A stretch of DNA of 64,000 nucleotides. Source: Microbacterium sp. SSM24 (GTDB lineage Bacteria; Actinomycetota; Actinomycetes; Actinomycetales; Microbacteriaceae). Where the stretch lies: positions 1,240,001 through 1,304,000 of the forward strand of contig NZ_JAPDNQ010000001.1 in assembly GCF_025989145.1 (NCBI RefSeq), written 5' to 3'. The position numbers and the translations under genes were made by a program. The notes below the pieces were generated by a model, which saw nothing but the letters and a program-made list of their open reading frames with translations, made no database searches and was not told the origin of the DNA. Below are positions 4,785 through 43,031 of this stretch, in pieces. Numbering within the stretch: position 1 is the stretch's first letter; each line of letters begins with the position of its first letter.

Positions 4785-4818
4785 TTGACAGGAACGCGAT
4801 ATATCGTGTTATTCTCGG
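4785..4818 (+). promoter_or_regulatory. Promoter of DUF4097-padR operon
   Basis: A TTGACA box at 4785-4790 is followed after 19 nt by TATTCT (4810-4815). The spacer is long and the -10 imperfect, so the exact element is uncertain. The first PadR-type operator fills the spacer. Confidence 0.5.
4794..4809. promoter_or_regulatory. Putative PadR operator 1
   Basis: ACGCGATATATCGTGT, a dyad centred on CGATATATCG, repeated identically 28 nt further on. The two copies overlap and follow the promoter of the operon that encodes a PadR protein, so autorepression is the simplest reading. Confidence 0.7.
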
Positions 4819-4821
4819 GGC

Positions 4822-4837
4822 ACGCGATATATCGTGA
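4822..4837. promoter_or_regulatory. Putative PadR operator 2
   Basis: Second exact copy of ACGCGATATATCGTG. It overlaps a GTG at 4834 that opens the same frame as the DUF4097 gene but is not favoured as its start. Confidence 0.7.
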
Positions 4838-4863
4838 ACACACCCCAACCCCTGGAGAACACC

Positions 4864-5751
4864 ATGACCCTGGAGAAGTGGATCATCCACCCGGGCGAGA
4901 CGCGCGTCATCGACATCGAGACGGTGCGGTCGCTCAAAGTCGGCCTCATCGGCGGTCAGATCGACGTCATCGCCCACGACGAGCCGAGCGCCCGCATCGA
5001 GGTGCACGGCGTCACCGTCAAGGACCTCCGCATCGAGGTCGTCGGCGACACCGTCGAGATCGATCACCCGCAGCTGCGATGGGACAACTTCCTCGAGGTG
5101 TTCCGCAACTTCACCGCGAGCGGGCCGAAGGCCGAGATCAGCGTCGCCGTGCCTCGCTCCGTCGCCCTCAACCTCGGCGTCGTCAGCGCCAGCGCCCTCG
5201 TCGCCGGGCTGCAGTACGACGCCAAGCTCAACACCGTGTCGGGCGACATCATGGTCGACGGCCTCACGGGCGACCTCACCGTCAACGCCGTGTCGGGCGA
5301 CGTGCAGGTGCGCGACCTGGTCGGCTCGCTCAACGCCAACAGCGTGTCGGGCGATGTCACCGCCACCGGCACCCTCGCCAAGGCGACGATCGATACCGTC
5401 TCCGGCTCCGCGCTGATCGACTCGGCCGGCGACCTGCAGACCGTGAACGTCAACACCGTCAGCGGCGCGGTCACCGTGCGCGTGGACGACGGCCACCCCT
5501 CCAACTACGTCGTGCGCAGCGTGAGCGGCAAGGTGCAGGTCGACGGGGTCATGCGCTCCGGGAACGGCACCGGGCCCACCACGAACTTCACCGGCTCGGT
5601 CGGCGAGCTCAGCGGCAGCTTCGCCGACGTGCGCGCCAACAGCGTGTCGGGCGACGTCACCGTGCTGCGCCGACCGGTCGCGGCGCCGGATGCTCCGGTC
5701 GAGGGAAATCCCGCCGATGGCGCTTCCGCCGCCGGCGAGGGGGAATGGTGA
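4864..5751 (+). CDS. DUF4097 family protein, beta-solenoid
   Basis: A 295-aa protein without signal peptide or membrane helix. The middle consists of repeated VSGD/VSG turns spaced about 18-20 residues apart (TVSGDIMVDG, AVSGDVQVRD, SVSGDVTATG, TVSGSALIDS, SVSGDVTV), typical of the right-handed beta-solenoid of DUF4097 putative adhesin-like proteins. ATG 4864 is chosen because CTGGAG precedes it by about 6 nt and the upstream GTG 4834 lies inside an operator. It is coupled to the PadR gene (TGATG). Such DUF4097-PadR pairs are common in actinobacteria; the biochemical role is unknown. Confidence 0.85.
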   Translation: MTLEKWIIHPGETRVIDIETVRSLKVGLIGGQIDVIAHDEPSARIEVHGVTVKDLRIEVVGDTVEIDHPQLRWDNFLEVFRNFTASGPKAEISVAVPRSVALNLGVVSASALVAGLQYDAKLNTVSGDIMVDGLTGDLTVNAVSGDVQVRDLVGSLNANSVSGDVTATGTLAKATIDTVSGSALIDSAGDLQTVNVNTVSGAVTVRVDDGHPSNYVVRSVSGKVQVDGVMRSGNGTGPTTNFTGSVGELSGSFADVRANSVSGDVTVLRRPVAAPDAPVEGNPADGASAAGEGEW

Positions 5752-6359
5752 TGAGTCCTGTCTTCTCCCACGGCGACCTGCGCCTGTACCTGCTGAACCT
5801 CCTCGACGAGGGGCCGCGGCACGGCTACGACATCATGCAGGCGCTCTCCGACCGCACCGGCGGCACGTACACGCCGAGTGCCGGCACCATCTACCCGCGG
5901 CTGGCCAAGCTCGAAGAGGAGGGACTCGTGACCAAGTCGATCGACGGTCGCAAGACCGTCTACGCGATCACCGAGGCCGGACATGCCGAGGTCCAGTCCC
6001 GCGCCGGTGAGCTCGAGGGCATCGAAGCCGGCCTCGCCGACTCCGTGCGCCTGATCGCGGACGAGGTGCGAGGCAGCGTGCGCGAGGCGATGCGGAGCCT
6101 CCGCGCCGACCTCGCCGCCGCCCGAAGCGAGGAGCGCGGGGCCGCGACGGCGCAGGCTGCGTCGGACGACCCGCGCATCCAGAGCCGGGAGCAGCTGCAC
6201 CGCGCGGATGCCGCGATCAACGACTTCCGGGTGCGTCTGCGCACCGATCTGCGCGGCCATGTCGCCCGCGGTGGCGAGCTCGCGGCATCCATGATCGACG
6301 AGCTCACGGCGGACCTCGACCGCATCGCGCGTGAGGTCACGCGCACGCTGCGCGGCTGA
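5751..6359 (+). CDS. PadR-family transcriptional regulator
   Basis: A 202-aa regulator. Residues 1-85 are the PadR winged helix (LRLYLLNLLDEGPRHGYDIMQAL, then YTPSAGTIYPRLAKLEEEGLV). The C-terminal half is long, helical and rich in Arg/Ala/Glu, probably for dimerisation. ATG 5751 shares one base with the DUF4097 stop and has GAGGGGGA upstream; ATG 5745 is an alternative. It likely represses its own operon through the two CGATATATCG dyads at 4794-4837. Confidence 0.9.
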   Translation: MSPVFSHGDLRLYLLNLLDEGPRHGYDIMQALSDRTGGTYTPSAGTIYPRLAKLEEEGLVTKSIDGRKTVYAITEAGHAEVQSRAGELEGIEAGLADSVRLIADEVRGSVREAMRSLRADLAAARSEERGAATAQAASDDPRIQSREQLHRADAAINDFRVRLRTDLRGHVARGGELAASMIDELTADLDRIAREVTRTLRG

Positions 6360-6369
6360 CACCGATGAG

Positions 6370-6406
6370 AAGGGGGCTGGTTCCGGATGCCGGAGCCGGC
6401 CCCTTC
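6370..6406. terminator. Bidirectional terminator hairpin
   Basis: A stem of about 16 bp (including GU pairs) around a 3-nt loop, between the convergent padR and usp genes. The outer pairs are G-rich/C-rich and the stem ends in CCTTC/GAAGG. Confidence 0.65.
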
Positions 6407-6412
6407 GTCACG

Positions 6413-6952
6413 TCAGGAGGGCCAGATCTCCTCGTCGTCGGCGACCGGCTCGCCGAGCGGGACCACGAGCAGCGACCGGTGCTGACGGTGCGCGAGGCGC
6501 GCGGCGACCGAGCCCGTGAAGAACTCGCGGATCGACTCGCCGATCCCCCGCTTGCGCGTGCCGACGACCAGGAGCTTCGCGTCGATCTGCTCCGCCAGGT
6601 GCTTGATGGCCATCGCCGGGTCGCCGACGAGCTGCTGCACGCTCCAGTTCACGTCGTGTCCTTCGAGGAACGCGGATGCCGTGGCCTTGACCCTGGCGAG
6701 CTCGCCCTCGCCCGCCGCGATGTTGAGATCGATCGGCGCCGAGTGCACGTAGCCGTCGGGATCTTCGTAGGTGACGAACCGCGTCACGTCGACGTGGACG
6801 ACGACGAGCGGCGCACCGAGGAGCTTCGCGTACCGGGCGCCCTCGGCGAGAACGCGGGTGGACTGATCGGGAATCACCCCGACGATCACCGCCCCGCGCA
6901 CGTCCGCCGCCTTCGTGAGGGCGTCAGCCGGGTCAGATGCCTCGTCCGTCAT
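6413..6952 (-). CDS. Universal stress protein (UspA family)
   Basis: Single Usp domain, 179 aa, cytoplasmic. It opens AVIVGVIPDQSTRVLAEGARYAKLLGAPL after a short acidic leader and ends with the ATP-binding pattern G-x2-G-x9-G-S/T (GTRKRGIGESIREFFTGS), then SLLVVPLG. This suggests an ATP-binding type. Start ATG 6952 has GAGGAG about 10 nt upstream. Monocistronic and convergent with padR. Confidence 0.9.
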   Translation of the reverse strand: MTDEASDPADALTKAADVRGAVIVGVIPDQSTRVLAEGARYAKLLGAPLVVVHVDVTRFVTYEDPDGYVHSAPIDLNIAAGEGELARVKATASAFLEGHDVNWSVQQLVGDPAMAIKHLAEQIDAKLLVVGTRKRGIGESIREFFTGSVAARLAHRQHRSLLVVPLGEPVADDEEIWPS

Positions 6953-7110
6953 GCGTCCGCGCTCCTCATGCGTCGATGCCACAACCAAGGAGGAGCCCGC
7001 CGTGGTGCGGAGGCTCCGTGTTATCCTGAATGCTACTCTTACCGGCCTCGAGCCGGCGTCGTTGCGGCGGGCATCCAGAAGCCCGCGACTCACATATGAG
7101 GGGGTCTCGC

Positions 7111-7290
7111 ATGGGGCGTGGCCGTCAAAAGGCGAAGCACACCAAGATCGCCCGCGAACTCAAGTACGACGTTCACAGCGTCAACTATGGGGCGCTGGAA
7201 CGCGAGCTCGGGCACCCCTCTGACGACGCATACGTCGACAAGTGGGCGGATCAGTACTCGGGCGAGTACGAAGACGAGAAGGCCCAGTAG
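7111..7290 (+). CDS. DUF3073 family small protein
   Basis: A 59-aa, highly charged, soluble protein: it begins MGRGRQKAKHTKIARELKY and contains DKWADQYSGEY, the conserved form of the actinobacterial DUF3073 family. Function unknown. ATG 7111 is preceded by GAGGGG. A possible -10 (TATCCT near 7022) lies about 85 nt upstream, implying a leader. Confidence 0.9.
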   Translation: MGRGRQKAKHTKIARELKYDVHSVNYGALERELGHPSDDAYVDKWADQYSGEYEDEKAQ

Positions 7291-37699: not shown

Positions 37700-39613
37700 T
37701 CAGGTGATCCCGAGCTGGAACCATCCGGCCCAGCCGCCGGCCGCGTTCCACCACGTGCTGTAGGCGAGATCGTCGGTGCCGGTCACGAAGACGTCGATCT
37801 GCTCGGCGACGCGACTGATGGCCGCCACCTGTCCGCCGGGCTTCCCGACGCCGCCCGACACGTTGAACCAGCCCGCCCAGTTGCCGCCCTCGTGCCACCA
37901 CGTCGAGTACACGCGGTTGTCGGTGCCGATGACGAACAGGTCGAGGTGACCCGAGTACCGCGCGATCGCCGTGACGTCCGAGCCCGGCGAGGCGACGCCG
38001 CCCGACACCTGGAACCAGCCCTGAGCCCAGCCTCCGGTCGAGTTCCACCAGGTCGACATGATGCGCCCGCTGCTGTCGGTGGTGAACAGATCCAGCTGAT
38101 CCGGATGCCGCGCCACGACGGTCACCGTGGAGTCCGGCCGGCACGTGATGCCGTTGATCGGGAACCATCCCGACCACCCCGACCGCTGGTCCCACCACGC
38201 CGAGTAGACCCGGTTGTCGGTGCCGACGGTGAAGATGTCGAGGTGGTGCGGACGACGGGCTACGGCCGTCACGGGCGCCCCGTTCGCCGCGACGCCGCCG
38301 CCGATGTGCACCCAGTCGTTCGCCCAGCCTCCTCCGCCGTTCCACCAGATCGTCATCGTGCGGCCGTTCTGGTCGGTCGTGAAGAGGTCGATCTGATCGG
38401 TGTAGCGGGCGAGGGCGGTGACGACCGACCCGGGGCGGCACCGGATGCTGCCCAGCGGGAACCAGTTCGACCAGCCGGCGGAGGCATCCCACCACGCCGA
38501 GTAGACGCGGTTGTCGGTGCCGACCGTGAACAGGTCGAGGTGGCGGTCGTATCGCGAGATCGCCGTGATCGGCGAGCCCGCACCGCCGGGAGCGGCGACG
38601 CCGCCCATGAGCGAGAACCATCCCGCCCAGCCGGATCCGGCATCCCACCAGTCCGACACGCAGCGGCCGTCCGGCGCCACCGCGAACACGTCGAGGTGCT
38701 CGGGGTAGCGTGCCACGACCGACATGACCGCGCTCGCTCGGACCGGCTGTGTCATGAGCGGTCGGAACCGGTTCCAGATCACGGCCTTGCAGATGGCGCA
38801 GAACTCGACGCCGAGGTTGCGCATCTTGCAGTTCCACTCGGGCCGGTATGCGCCGGCGTGGTAGTAGTGCGCGCCCTCGAACGTCCCGACCGTCCCGGCC
38901 GGAACCGGGCTCGCCGAATAGTCCTCGACGGCCGGATTCGGGTTGGTCTGCGTGGGGATGGGCGTGTTCGCCGCCACCGCCCAGCGCCACTTGAGCGTGT
39001 TGCGGTCGGTGTTGATCGTCACGTTCGGCTCGCCGGGCTCGACGGCGGGATGCTGCTGACGGTCCGCCTCGTTGCCGCCCGCCCAGTAGGGGTACTCGTC
39101 CGCCAGTCCGAACGCCGTGTGGACGGCCTCGTGGATCGCGATCTCGGTTGCGCCTCCCGCGAGCGAGTAGGTGCCGATCGCGCCGCCCGCGCCGCCGTAG
39201 ACGGTCGAGTTCACCACCAGGAGCGCGAGCGTGAACTCGGGGACCTGCGCGGCCGCGGTCGTCAGCACCGTCGTGGTGTCGGCGAGAAGGAGACGACGGA
39301 TGCCGCCACCGCCGAAGGTCGCATCGAAGAACGTGCGGGCTGTGGCCCCGGTTCCTCCAGGCCCGACCGGATCGTCGGCACCGCTGTCGGTGGAGCGGAC
39401 GTTCACCCGGAAGACGTTGATGACCGACCGGAGCTGCCCGAACGGGTCCGTCGCGAGCAGCGCGGTGACGAAGTCCGTCGCCGCCGTGTCGAACGCCCCC
39501 TGCTGCGCCGCGGTGAACCCGTCGCCGAGCAGGACGATGTTGAACGCCTTGTTCCGCGGGGCGTTCCCGTGGATCTGCGTCGTGCCGATGACGGCACCGT
39601 CTGCGGTGGTCAT
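37700..39613 (-). CDS. M64-type metallopeptidase fused to a seven-blade beta-propeller
   Basis: A 637-aa protein. Residues 1-290 resemble peptidase family M64 (IgA-protease-like): FNIVLLGDGFTAAQQGAF at the start and the zinc site HEAVHTAFGLADE, with His161, Glu162 and His165. A Cys cluster (CKMRNLGVEFCAIC) closes the domain. Residues about 296-637 are seven repeats of about 49 residues (x-VTA-x-AR, LDLF, GTDNRVYS, WW, GW-x2-WF), a PLL/DUF346-type lectin-like propeller. No signal peptide is visible. It is coupled to the upstream 153-aa gene by ATGA. The domain pairing suggests glycan-directed proteolysis; this is inference. Confidence 0.8.
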   Translation of the reverse strand: MTTADGAVIGTTQIHGNAPRNKAFNIVLLGDGFTAAQQGAFDTAATDFVTALLATDPFGQLRSVINVFRVNVRSTDSGADDPVGPGGTGATARTFFDATFGGGGIRRLLLADTTTVLTTAAAQVPEFTLALLVVNSTVYGGAGGAIGTYSLAGGATEIAIHEAVHTAFGLADEYPYWAGGNEADRQQHPAVEPGEPNVTINTDRNTLKWRWAVAANTPIPTQTNPNPAVEDYSASPVPAGTVGTFEGAHYYHAGAYRPEWNCKMRNLGVEFCAICKAVIWNRFRPLMTQPVRASAVMSVVARYPEHLDVFAVAPDGRCVSDWWDAGSGWAGWFSLMGGVAAPGGAGSPITAISRYDRHLDLFTVGTDNRVYSAWWDASAGWSNWFPLGSIRCRPGSVVTALARYTDQIDLFTTDQNGRTMTIWWNGGGGWANDWVHIGGGVAANGAPVTAVARRPHHLDIFTVGTDNRVYSAWWDQRSGWSGWFPINGITCRPDSTVTVVARHPDQLDLFTTDSSGRIMSTWWNSTGGWAQGWFQVSGGVASPGSDVTAIARYSGHLDLFVIGTDNRVYSTWWHEGGNWAGWFNVSGGVGKPGGQVAAISRVAEQIDVFVTGTDDLAYSTWWNAAGGWAGWFQLGIT

Positions 39614-40071
39614 GACTCCACCTCGTCGATCGCGTCATCCGAGAGGACGATCGGACCGGGTGCACGGAACGCCCGCTCGCCGGGCGGGGGTGCGGCATCC
39701 GGCGAGAGCGGACGCTGGAGCACCACGCGCGCGGCCGTGCGCGGTGCGGGCACCACGACGGTGAACGCGCCGCGGCGCATCGGATCGGGGACGCGCGAGA
39801 TCGCCTCGCCCGGTTCGCCGAAGACCTCGACGGAGTCGGGGAGCGCATCCCGCACGCGGACGCGTGAGAGGGCGACGCCTTCGGCATCCCGCACCTCGAC
39901 GTGGTCGACGCTCGGCGCTTCGTCGAGGTCGAACCCCGGCACCGCGACGTCGACGCGCTGCTGACTGACGAGGCGCACCTCGCCGTCTTCGTACTCGTAG
40001 ATGAGACGGAGGGCGGCGCCCCGCGTCTCGTCGTCGTCGCCGGGCGAACCCGGCAGGTCGGGAGAGCTCAT
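39610..40071 (-). CDS. Hypothetical partner of the M64-propeller protein
   Basis: A 153-aa acidic soluble protein without family I recognise. It predicts as mainly beta strand (LRLIYEYEDGEVRLVSQQRVDVAVPG, then RGAFTVVVPAPRTAARVVLQRPL) with a Pro-rich end. It overlaps the protease gene by 4 nt, so both are made together; it could be an inhibitor, chaperone or delivery partner. No signal peptide. Confidence 0.7.
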   Translation of the reverse strand: MSSPDLPGSPGDDDETRGAALRLIYEYEDGEVRLVSQQRVDVAVPGFDLDEAPSVDHVEVRDAEGVALSRVRVRDALPDSVEVFGEPGEAISRVPDPMRRGAFTVVVPAPRTAARVVLQRPLSPDAAPPPGERAFRAPGPIVLSDDAIDEVES

Positions 40072-40260
40072 GGCTGCACCTCGGATCGATGGATGAGTGG
40101 CGGATCGGCGGATGAGCGTTCCCGCGGATCGATGCTCCGCGTGACGCCCGCCGATCCGGCGGGACGACAGACCCCGATGCAGGAAGAGAGGCGTGCGGGG
40201 TCACCGCTGATACCCGCCCGGCGGCATCCGGTGATCTGCCGGTGTGCGGGCATGGGCCGA

Positions 40261-40274
40261 TGTAAGCGCTTGCA
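40261..40274. promoter_or_regulatory. LacI-type operator of glucosidase operon
   Basis: TGTAAGCGCTTGCA, a near-perfect dyad around AAGCGCTT typical of LacI-family sites. It directly precedes the -10 box of an operon that encodes a LacI protein. Confidence 0.8.
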
Positions 40275-40275
40275 G

Positions 40276-40281
40276 TACACT
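40276..40281 (+). promoter_or_regulatory. Leaderless -10 of GH13 gene
   Basis: TACACT, then GGCCCG, then ATG 40288. Confidence 0.65.
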
Positions 40282-40287
40282 GGCCCG

Positions 40288-41970
40288 ATGACTTCCCCGC
40301 AGACCGCCGAGCGCGTCGATGCGCCGTCCACCGCAGCCGGCCGCGAGTGGTGGCGCACCGCCGTCATCTACCAGATCTACCCCCGGTCGTTCTCCGACAG
40401 CACGGGCGACGGCGTCGGCGACCTGCCCGGCATCACGTCGCGGCTCGACGATCTGCGCGACCTCGGCGTCGACGCACTGTGGCTGAGCCCGTTCCAGCGC
40501 TCCCCGCAGAAGGACGCCGGCTACGACGTCGCCGATTACTGCGACGTCGACCCGCTCTTCGGCACGCTCGCCGACTTCGACGAGATGCTCGCGCAGGCGC
40601 ACGCGCGCAGCATCCGCCTCATCGTCGACCTGGTTCCGAACCACTCGTCCGACCAGCACGTGTGGTTCCAGCAGGCGCTGGCCGCGGCGCCCGGAAGCGT
40701 CGAGCGCGCGCGCTACATGTTCCGCGACGGCCGAGGCGTCGAGGGCGAGCTCCCGCCGAACAACTGGGAGTCCGTGTTCGGCGGCCCCGCGTGGACCCGG
40801 GTGGTCGAGCCCGACGGCACCGCGGGCCAGTGGTACCTGCACCTGTTCGACTCGTCGCAGCCCGACTTCGACTGGTCCAACGAAGAGGTGCGCGAGGAGT
40901 TCCGCCGCATCCTGCGGTTCTGGCTCGACCGCGGTGTCGACGGCTTCCGCGTCGATGTCGCACACGGCCTGGTGAAGGCTGCGGGCCTCCCCGACTACAC
41001 GCCCGACCCCGAGTCCGGCTCGATGGGCGGCGAAGAGGCGAACGTGCCCTACTGGGGCCAGGACGGCGTGCACGAGGTGTACCGCGACTGGCACAACCTG
41101 CTCGCCGAGTACGACGGCGACCGCGCCCTGTGCGCCGAGGCGTGGCTGCCCACGCCTGAGAAGACCGCGCTGTGGGTGCGCCCCGACGAGATGCACCAGG
41201 CGTTCAACTTCGCCTACCTCGAGACGACGTGGGAGGCCCCCGCCCTCCGTGCCGTGATCGCCGAGTCGATCGCCGCCTACGCGGCCGTCGGCGCGCCGAG
41301 CACGTGGGTGCTCTCGAACCACGACGTCGTGCGCCACGCCTCCCGCCTCGCCCTCACCGCCGAGAACCCGCAGGGTCACGGCATCGGCCCCGACTCCCCC
41401 GGCAAGCCGATCCCCGAGGTCGGTCTGCGCCGCGCCCGCGCCGCGACGACGCTCATGCTCGCGCTGCCCGGCTCCGCCTACCTCTACCAGGGCGAGGAGC
41501 TCGGCCTTCCCGAGGTCATCGACATCCCCGGCGACGCCCGTCAGGACCCGACCTGGTTCCGCACGAACGGCGAGCGCTACGGCCGTGACGGCTGCCGCGT
41601 GCCGATCCCGTGGTCGGCCGACGCGCCCGCGTACGGCTTCAGCCCGAACGGCGCGGCGTGGCTTCCCCAGCCCGCTGAGTGGGCGACGCTCGCCCGCGAC
41701 GCCCAGGCGGGCGACCCCGGATCGACGCTGTCGCTGTACCGTTCGCTCATCGCAGCGCGCCGCGCGCGCGGTCTCGGTGACGGCACGCTCGAGTGGCTGA
41801 AGGGCTTCGGAACGGATGCTGTCGCCTTCCGCAACGGGAACGTGACCGTCGTCGGCAACACCGGTGCCACGCCGATCCCCCTGCCGGACGGTATCGTGAT
41901 CGCGGCGAGCGGCCCGATCGACGGCGGTGAACTGCCGGCCGACACGACGGTCTGGCTCGCGAACGACTGA
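40288..41970 (+). CDS. GH13 alpha-glucosidase
   Basis: A 560-aa cytoplasmic enzyme of the oligo-alpha-glucosidase group. It starts TAVIYQIYPRSFSDSTGDGVGDLPGI, with the conserved regions DLVPNHSS, GFRVDVAHG (nucleophile Asp223), CAEAW (acid/base Glu284) and SNHDVVR (Asp346). QPDFDWSN-type sequence and the missing signal peptide fit use of imported alpha-glucosides such as maltose, isomaltose or trehalose-like sugars. ATG is set by the -10 box. The lacI gene follows after 41 nt in one operon. Confidence 0.95.
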   Translation: MTSPQTAERVDAPSTAAGREWWRTAVIYQIYPRSFSDSTGDGVGDLPGITSRLDDLRDLGVDALWLSPFQRSPQKDAGYDVADYCDVDPLFGTLADFDEMLAQAHARSIRLIVDLVPNHSSDQHVWFQQALAAAPGSVERARYMFRDGRGVEGELPPNNWESVFGGPAWTRVVEPDGTAGQWYLHLFDSSQPDFDWSNEEVREEFRRILRFWLDRGVDGFRVDVAHGLVKAAGLPDYTPDPESGSMGGEEANVPYWGQDGVHEVYRDWHNLLAEYDGDRALCAEAWLPTPEKTALWVRPDEMHQAFNFAYLETTWEAPALRAVIAESIAAYAAVGAPSTWVLSNHDVVRHASRLALTAENPQGHGIGPDSPGKPIPEVGLRRARAATTLMLALPGSAYLYQGEELGLPEVIDIPGDARQDPTWFRTNGERYGRDGCRVPIPWSADAPAYGFSPNGAAWLPQPAEWATLARDAQAGDPGSTLSLYRSLIAARRARGLGDGTLEWLKGFGTDAVAFRNGNVTVVGNTGATPIPLPDGIVIAASGPIDGGELPADTTVWLAND

Positions 41971-42011
41971 CAGGCGACCGGCTGCGGGCCGGAGCGAGAG
42001 GTGAGGGCGAC

Positions 42012-43031
42012 GTGGTCAGCATCGACGAGGTGGCGCGGCATGCCGGCGTCTCGACGGCGACCGTCTCGCGCGCCCTGAGCGGTCGCGGCCACGTCTCCGA
42101 TGCGACCAAGGCGCGCGTGGAGGCGGCGGCCAAGAGTCTCGGCTACGTCGTCTCGGCATCCGCATCGAGTCTCGCCTCCGGCCGCACCCGCAACATCGGG
42201 GTGCTCGTGCCCTTCCTCGATCGCTGGTTCTTCTCGACCGTGCTCTCGGGCATCGCGTCCGCTCTCATGCGTCGCGGGTACGACATCACCCTGTATGCGC
42301 TCACCGCCGACCGCGGCGAGCGCCGAGACGTGTTCGACACGTTCCTGCGCCGTCAGCGGGTGGACGGCGTGATCGCGATCTCGATCGAGCTCGGCGAGGA
42401 GGAGACCCGCCAGCTGATCGAGCTCGACCTCCCCGTGATCGCGATCGGCGGACCCAACCCGAGGCTCACGACCCTGACGGTCGACGACGTCGCCGTCGCA
42501 CGGCTGGCCACCGAGCACCTGCTCGCGCTCGGTCACCGCGAGATCGCGCACATCGGCGCCAGCCCCGAGTTCGACATCGACTTCCACATCCCCACGCATC
42601 GCCGGCAGGGCTTCGAGCTCGCACTGGCGGATGCCGGCATCCCGGTGAAGCCGTCGCTGTTCGAGCCCGCCGACTTCACGATCGAGGGCGGGTTCCGCGC
42701 CGCGAAGCAGCTCCTCGGCCAGCCGGGCGGACGGCCGACGGCGATCTTCGCGGCATCCGACGAGATGGCCATCGGCGCGCTGCTGGCCGCACGCGAGCTG
42801 GGGTACCGCGTGCCCGAGGACCTCTCGGTCGTCGGCATCGACGGTCACGAGCTCGGCGAGTTCTTCCGTCTGACGACGGTCGACCAGTTCCCGCTCGGCC
42901 AGGGCGAGCGGGCCGCCGACGCGATCCTCGCCGAGCTGGAGTCGAAGGGTGCCGCGGCCCCGGTGCACCAGCCCGGCGAGCTTCCGTACGAACTGATCGT
43001 GCGCGGCTCGACCGCCCGCCTGTCCGGCTGA
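42012..43031 (+). CDS. LacI-family regulator of the alpha-glucosidase operon
   Basis: A 339-aa repressor. It begins directly with the helix-turn-helix SIDEVARHAGVSTATVSRALSG, then a hinge (ASSLASGRT) and the sugar-sensing domain (FFSTVLSGIASALMRRGYDITLYA, later VVGIDGHELGEFFRLTTVDQ). GTG 42012 has GAGGGCG-type purines upstream. The matching AAGCGCTT operator at 40261 implies autoregulation with the glucosidase. Confidence 0.9.
   Translation: MVSIDEVARHAGVSTATVSRALSGRGHVSDATKARVEAAAKSLGYVVSASASSLASGRTRNIGVLVPFLDRWFFSTVLSGIASALMRRGYDITLYALTADRGERRDVFDTFLRRQRVDGVIAISIELGEEETRQLIELDLPVIAIGGPNPRLTTLTVDDVAVARLATEHLLALGHREIAHIGASPEFDIDFHIPTHRRQGFELALADAGIPVKPSLFEPADFTIEGGFRAAKQLLGQPGGRPTAIFAASDEMAIGALLAARELGYRVPEDLSVVGIDGHELGEFFRLTTVDQFPLGQGERAADAILAELESKGAAAPVHQPGELPYELIVRGSTARLSG

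Follow-up and report, generated by a model that had tools for sequence, protein, structure and literature searches.

A propeller-headed M64 metallopeptidase and its constant small partner gene in Microbacterium and distant bacteria

The described M64 metallopeptidases closest to the enzyme reported here are BF3526 and BACOVA_00663 (PDB 4df9, 9qdi, 3p1v). PMC12402451 gives the zinc motif as HEXXHXXXGXXD and describes a second, structural zinc site in M64 structures. According to the same paper, the N-terminal beta-sandwich domain of BF3526 (M64_N) flanks the active site and restricts access to it, the catalytic domain failed to express alone, and chymotrypsin cleavage separating the N-terminal domain led to non-specific IgA cleavage. 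ThomasA, an IgA protease covered there, carries its M64 catalytic domain among beta domains; it is secreted, bears a potential sortase site and has a different N-terminal domain (DUF6273). Seven-bladed propellers are known from the stand-alone PLL/PHL lectins of Photorhabdus (5mxe, 6rfz). In PMC12203525, PLL signal peptides are described as not recognised, and PLL2 and PLL3 are nevertheless reported from the extracellular fraction. Two surveys of extracellular contractile injection system (eCIS) toxins (PMC8213781, PMC11297309) mention peptidases in general, and their main text names no lectin, propeller, Arthrobacter or Microbacterium. No description of the gene pair presented below was found in open-licence PMC papers.

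The pair lies in a 64,000-nucleotide stretch of the 3.4-Mb genome of Microbacterium sp. SSM24 (the window, C1:1240001-1304000), with all its features on the minus strand. Its first gene (39610..40071) encodes a beta-rich protein of 153 aa, and its second (37700..39613) encodes a 637-aa M64 metallopeptidase with a PLL-type propeller, identified by open reading frame, Pfam, NCBIfam and alignments with PDB entries. Frame coordinates and DNA place the stop of the small gene and the start of the protease gene in one ATGA (39610..39613), from which we infer translational coupling. A ribosome-binding-like GAGGTG stands 5 nt upstream of both ATGs in the DNA, at 40077..40082 for the small gene and, within the small gene's 3' end, at 39619..39624 for the protease gene. 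The small protein has no family match in Pfam, NCBIfam or PADLOC, and no PADLOC profile for anti-phage defence matched the pair. The flanking genes resemble apt and a GH13 enzyme, judged by eye from translations. The nearest of the related loci found belongs to Microbacterium sp. Root180 (96% identity).

The catalytic domain occupies about residues 1-289 of the protease (38747..39613) according to the Peptidase_M64 match (PF09471, E 1.4e-40, 139.8 bits against a curated cut-off of 26) and the alignment with 3p1v. Residues 21-279 align with M64 structures, residues 23-279 corresponding to residues 157-398 of 3p1v. By sequence and alignment, the zinc motif HEAVHTAFGLAD (HEXXHXXXGXXD) covers residues 161-172 (39098..39133) within HEAVHTAFGLADE (residues 161-173), and the pattern HE..H...G.[AG]DE recurs in 116 of the 120 protease relatives listed. 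Three cysteines, C262, C272 and C275 (38789..38830), are invariant across 35 aligned proteins, align with cysteines of 3p1v and are predicted to form the second, structural zinc site. M64_N is absent in front of the window's catalytic domain, which begins at the N-terminus and has no PF16217 match there. BF3526 and BACOVA_00663 thus share the catalytic motif and the cysteine triad with the window protease, and in them, as in the window pair, a beta-rich domain is encoded directly ahead. However, their N-terminal domain is fused and no propeller follows, whereas the candidate front domain of the window enzyme is a separate protein and lacks a signal peptide. ThomasA resembles the window enzyme in its surrounding beta domains, but differs in its secretion, potential sortase site and N-terminal domain (PMC12402451), and nothing in the window enzyme points to IgA cleavage.

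From about residue 294 to residue 637 (37703..38734), the protease consists of a seven-bladed PLL-type propeller, delimited by NCBIfam, alignments with PDB entries and WW motifs. WW occurs at residues 322, 374, 423, 473, 522, 572 and 621, and this spacing of 49-52 residues indicates seven blades. The propeller scored 216.8 bits with the NCBIfam model beta_propeller_lectin (NF052348; cut-off 200), and did not match the CV39L (190 against 350) or BP39L (112 against 400) equivalogs. It shares the seven blades with the Photorhabdus lectins (E about 1e-21 for 5mxe and 2e-20 for 6rfz), but those lectins stand alone, whereas the window propeller is the C-terminal head of a protease and its sugar sites are putative. 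An earlier note made from the letters alone had described an M64 zinc site, seven regular repeats forming a complete propeller, and a 4-nt overlap with a 153-aa beta-rich gene, and all three descriptions hold.

The same note had stated that neither gene encodes a signal peptide, which agrees with the start codons and hydropathy of both frames. Only seven codons separate the upstream stop from the ATG of the protease, none of them a start (ATG, GTG or TTG), and the 43 upstream codons of the small frame contain no ATG, GTG or TTG either, so a missed upstream start of these types is rejected for both. The first 30 residues of the small protein reach a 12-residue Kyte-Doolittle mean of at most -0.04, and the highest mean in the first 22 residues of the 120 protease relatives listed is 1.5. 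The note had found such an absence odd for a PLL-type propeller. Since PLL lectins of Photorhabdus likewise have no recognised signal peptide (PMC12203525), it is not anomalous in the window pair.

Conservation across genomes confirms that the two genes form one constant unit and that their partnership is real. Two peptide patterns, biased towards close kin, retrieved 48 genome loci, 28 of which hold this M64 type (at least 60% identity). A small-family profile matched just upstream of the protease in 28/28 of these, the match in one (L031) being partial and the copy broken. Among 27 loci measured, L032 included, the genes overlap by 4 nt in 11 and are 9 to 27 nt apart in 16. Within the other 20 loci, the only small-gene match accompanies a planctomycete M64 of 39% identity (L032); the remaining 19 lack such a match and hold parts of a propeller, proteases of other kinds or secreted-type M64s. 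Whole-genome searches of 29 genomes, a set leaving out the genome of L004, recovered 28 small genes in 27 genomes, every one within a pair locus, and in the two negative genomes the propeller is present only on another protease. The small partner, which had been called obligate-looking from one locus, is found upstream in all 28 close loci, and the survey of co-occurrence that the note had proposed turned up no close homologue without it.

Wider searches outlined both families. Of 8000 proteins scored, 836 were related to the protease at E 0.001 or better, and the 120 listed were each 100% covered at 68-92% identity. A widened query returned 551 small-protein relatives at the same threshold (120 listed); the members tested matched no Pfam or NCBIfam family, yet the small gene stands beside every close-type M64 examined. 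In 396 actinobacterial genomes, the small-family profile matched three times: in the window genome, in G108 beside an adjoining M64, and as a 31-residue scrap in G002 (L068), where the surrounding 3 kb contain no M64. A single-sequence search of 247 Microbacterium genomes gave four matches, namely the window genome, G583, G758 (a divergent pair) and G646, the last of which was dropped because it found no profile support on re-test. The small gene thus also adjoins divergent M64s (L032, G108, G758), and a small-like gene at the same position with a 4-nt overlap in G326, recognised by eye, probably accompanies a fourth. Two signal-less M64s with FG-GAP-type tails, L055 and L057 (L166, L167; tails assigned by Pfam and by eye, respectively), have no significant small-gene match, which speaks against the small partner being a general rule for signal-less M64s. 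No third gene is conserved: leaving aside the two genes and the frames that overlap them, no cluster occurred in more than 4/30 loci. A long open frame in G400 looked like a natural fusion of the pair, but its DNA has a stop between the two genes and the reading was rejected. Distances between small proteins correlate with those between large proteins (Mantel r 0.75, 22 pairs, 0/5000 permutations as high), as expected for a co-inherited single cassette, and this correlation alone does not prove interaction.

Comparison of loci ties the small gene to the catalytic domain and not to the propeller. The small gene is kept where the C-terminal head is a tectonin propeller (L030), hemopexin repeats (L028), DUF346 repeats (L029) or VWA (L032), and by eye L026 carries a tectonin head like that of L030. 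Conversely, the same or similar propellers on astacin-like (L023, L025), M28 (L043) and M43 (L035) proteases have no small-gene match by profile. The two astacin-like proteases are from Mucilaginibacter, bear nearly the same propeller (63-64% identity) and show no signal peptide by eye. In the catalytic-domain tree, two tectonin-headed Streptomyces sequences nest inside the PLL-headed Streptomyces (0.91 and 0.99), whereas in the small-protein tree they fall beside that group, not inside it (0.90); the timing of the head swap is unsure because the trees differ.

The small gene and a fused M64_N domain do not overlap in distribution. By profile search, the small gene was absent beside 64/64 M64s with M64_N in the same frame. 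These comprise 29 from Bacteroidota (30 loci chosen by PF16217, the thirtieth of which had no M64 match), 30 from Acidobacteriota (the best M64 loci from 88 genomes) and five of 12 further Acidobacteriota regions. Of the seven other regions, the small gene is present in one (L165, the L029 locus), and neither feature was found in the remaining six. The M64_N profile found no match in any pair locus tested. Neither feature was detected in eight secreted-type actinobacterial M64 loci (L034, L036-L041, L044), or in L055 and L057. As the M64 loci were not randomly selected, this mutual exclusion is to be read as a pattern and not as a frequency.

In position and beta-rich make-up, the small protein matches M64_N, and profile comparisons suggest, short of demonstrating, that the two are homologous. 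The small protein does not match PF16217 at E up to 10. Aligning the small family with Bacteroidota M64_N alone (hhalign) gave P 0.22-0.23, which fell to 0.029-0.037 with a colinear alignment after Acidobacteriota M64_N sequences were added. With trimmed columns and the widened M64_N set, P was 0.018-0.023, against 0.25-0.31 for the reversed alignment; the score was reached by 3/200 column shuffles and by 16-18/200 ten-column block shuffles. An M64_N profile scored the small proteins above the reversed control (1.6 versus -2.9 bits), whereas M64_N proteins scored with the small-family profile did not exceed their reversed counterparts (best -1.0 versus 0.1 bits). Chou-Fasman strand plots were too crude to decide. 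In a search against PDB sequences, the best match of the small family was to a 29-residue stretch in a designed protein (E 0.0026), which we judged to be chance.

We hypothesize that the two genes encode one two-subunit M64 zinc protease. The protease begins at its catalytic domain, and the small beta protein would take the place of M64_N in trans, helping the enzyme to fold and gating it. The propeller would serve as an exchangeable head directing the protease to glycan-bearing targets, and the complex, made in the cytosol, would act once outside the cell, released by lysis or, in certain hosts, in an injection particle. This tentative reading is the one we prefer, and we hold it to be quite possible, if somewhat short of probable, whereas the existence of the pair and its modular make-up have good support. 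The earlier note had proposed an uncharacterised protease-inhibitor or protease-targeting system: the two-gene unit stands, and the partner follows the M64 domain. A plain inhibitor or targeting subunit is not favoured, and an N-terminal M64 domain that has become detached seems the likelier identity. Were the small protein a front domain in trans, it would offer a natural, separable version of the domain whose removal stopped expression of BF3526 (PMC12402451), so that any part it plays in folding, gating or substrate selection could be tested by combining two proteins. Such a finding would further establish a single protease core as the base of a modular set of heads. A broader proposal, less likely than the reading we prefer, is that the pair is a mobile cassette across at least five phyla, uniting a constant M64 core, a gate in trans and interchangeable heads with the injection particles of some hosts, in which loss of the gate outside the cell would turn restricted into general proteolysis.

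The small protein might instead be a dedicated inhibitor that keeps the signal-less protease inactive in the cytosol, the block ending once the complex has been released and is diluted or cleaved. This idea overlaps with that of a gate, which also restrains, and it fits a gene that is encoded first and overlaps a protease without signal peptide, and a close-type protease that never occurs without the small gene (28 loci). Yet the two signal-less FG-GAP-type M64s do without it, and no small gene occurs outside a pair in the 29 genomes, whereas free inhibitors often stray. A free inhibitor would also have to be reconciled with the absence of the small gene beside the 64 M64s with fused M64_N, and with the N-termini of its own family. 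Among 167 small proteins, 32 carry at least 25 residues before the domain, in 19 cases with a strongly hydrophobic stretch that would part the small protein from its signal-less protease. We therefore regard a dedicated inhibitor as unlikely. The 19 in-frame signal-like extensions (P0137, P0183, P0238, P0266 and 15 others) include several shaped, by eye, like Sec or lipoprotein signals.

The same extensions bear on a role of the small protein as an adaptor for export, by Sec hitch-hiking in Gram-negatives, or for loading into contractile particles, which appears improbable. In its favour, two Nitrospira and one acidobacterium have a signal-like extension on the small frame and none on the protease. 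However, the small frames of L002, L005 and L029, whose proteases have no signal-like extension, contain after the hydrophobic stretch an inner ATG with a good and clearer ribosome-binding-like site, and the small protein may thus be made in an exported as well as a cytosolic form.

Contractile-injection genes, which the earlier note had suggested looking for near the pair in relatives, were found beside it in one, Arthrobacter sp. H20 (G403). There, an eCIS cluster that includes an eCIS_core protein, a sheath and gp25 (its other members being judged by eye) has an M64-PLL pair on either side, an arrangement that would favour a loading adaptor. The pairs lie on scaffold25 (L111-L114) at 4794-7174 and about 39900-42279, the second looking decayed. 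Ahead of each lie a BTAD-type regulator region, an unknown gene and an inverted subtilase (the second set identified by family search, the first by similarity). The window pair differs in having no eCIS_core domain and in lying on another contig than the eCIS-type locus of its own genome, which is outside the window at C2:137474 to about 160000 (L101, L102) and comprises two sheath-like genes (one below cut-off), a CIS tube gene and gp25. The regulator preceding this locus is similar (33.6% identity) to the BTAD gene found next to the pairs in Arthrobacter.

Sheath matches, from a model that misses sheaths (16.6 bits against a cut-off of 31.4 for that of H20), occurred in 15/29 pair genomes, that is, 15/27 close-type genomes and 0/2 for G108 and G326, and 10 of the 12 close-type genomes without a match also had no gp25. 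Across the phylum, 37/396 genomes matched, and the crude excess in close-type pair genomes was large (15/27 versus 36/395 other genomes, P about 1e-8). Among nearer taxa only, it was not significant (11/22 versus 8 of at least 28, P 0.15), and dependence of the pair on eCIS was consequently kept as a lead only. In Microbacterium, 3/3 pair-bearing genomes had a sheath match against 16/244 others, which would suit an adaptor, but two of the three are close kin.

That the pair works within the producing cell, on that cell's own proteins and with no delivery role, accords with the lack of signal peptides in both window proteins but is very improbable, given that heads of the lectin-type propeller, hemopexin and tectonin kinds usually serve exported proteins as binding modules, and that the distribution of the pair fits an accessory, moving cassette. 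Pairs occur in Microbacterium and kin, Nitrospira, Variovorax, an acidobacterium and a planctomycete, which we take to represent five phyla. In the catalytic-domain tree, Variovorax groups with Nitrospira among actinobacterial sequences (0.94), which points to horizontal transfer. A phage origin was rejected, as viral contigs held no locus related to the small protein and only 2/50,697 phage records matched the protease, over about 41% of it; plasmid carriage was rejected likewise (21 records matched, none over 80% of the query). The spread is patchy even within one genus, with two close pairs and one divergent pair among the 247 Microbacterium genomes. In the divergent Microbacterium pair (L106/L108, G758), the small protein is extended at its C-terminus by roughly 90 residues.
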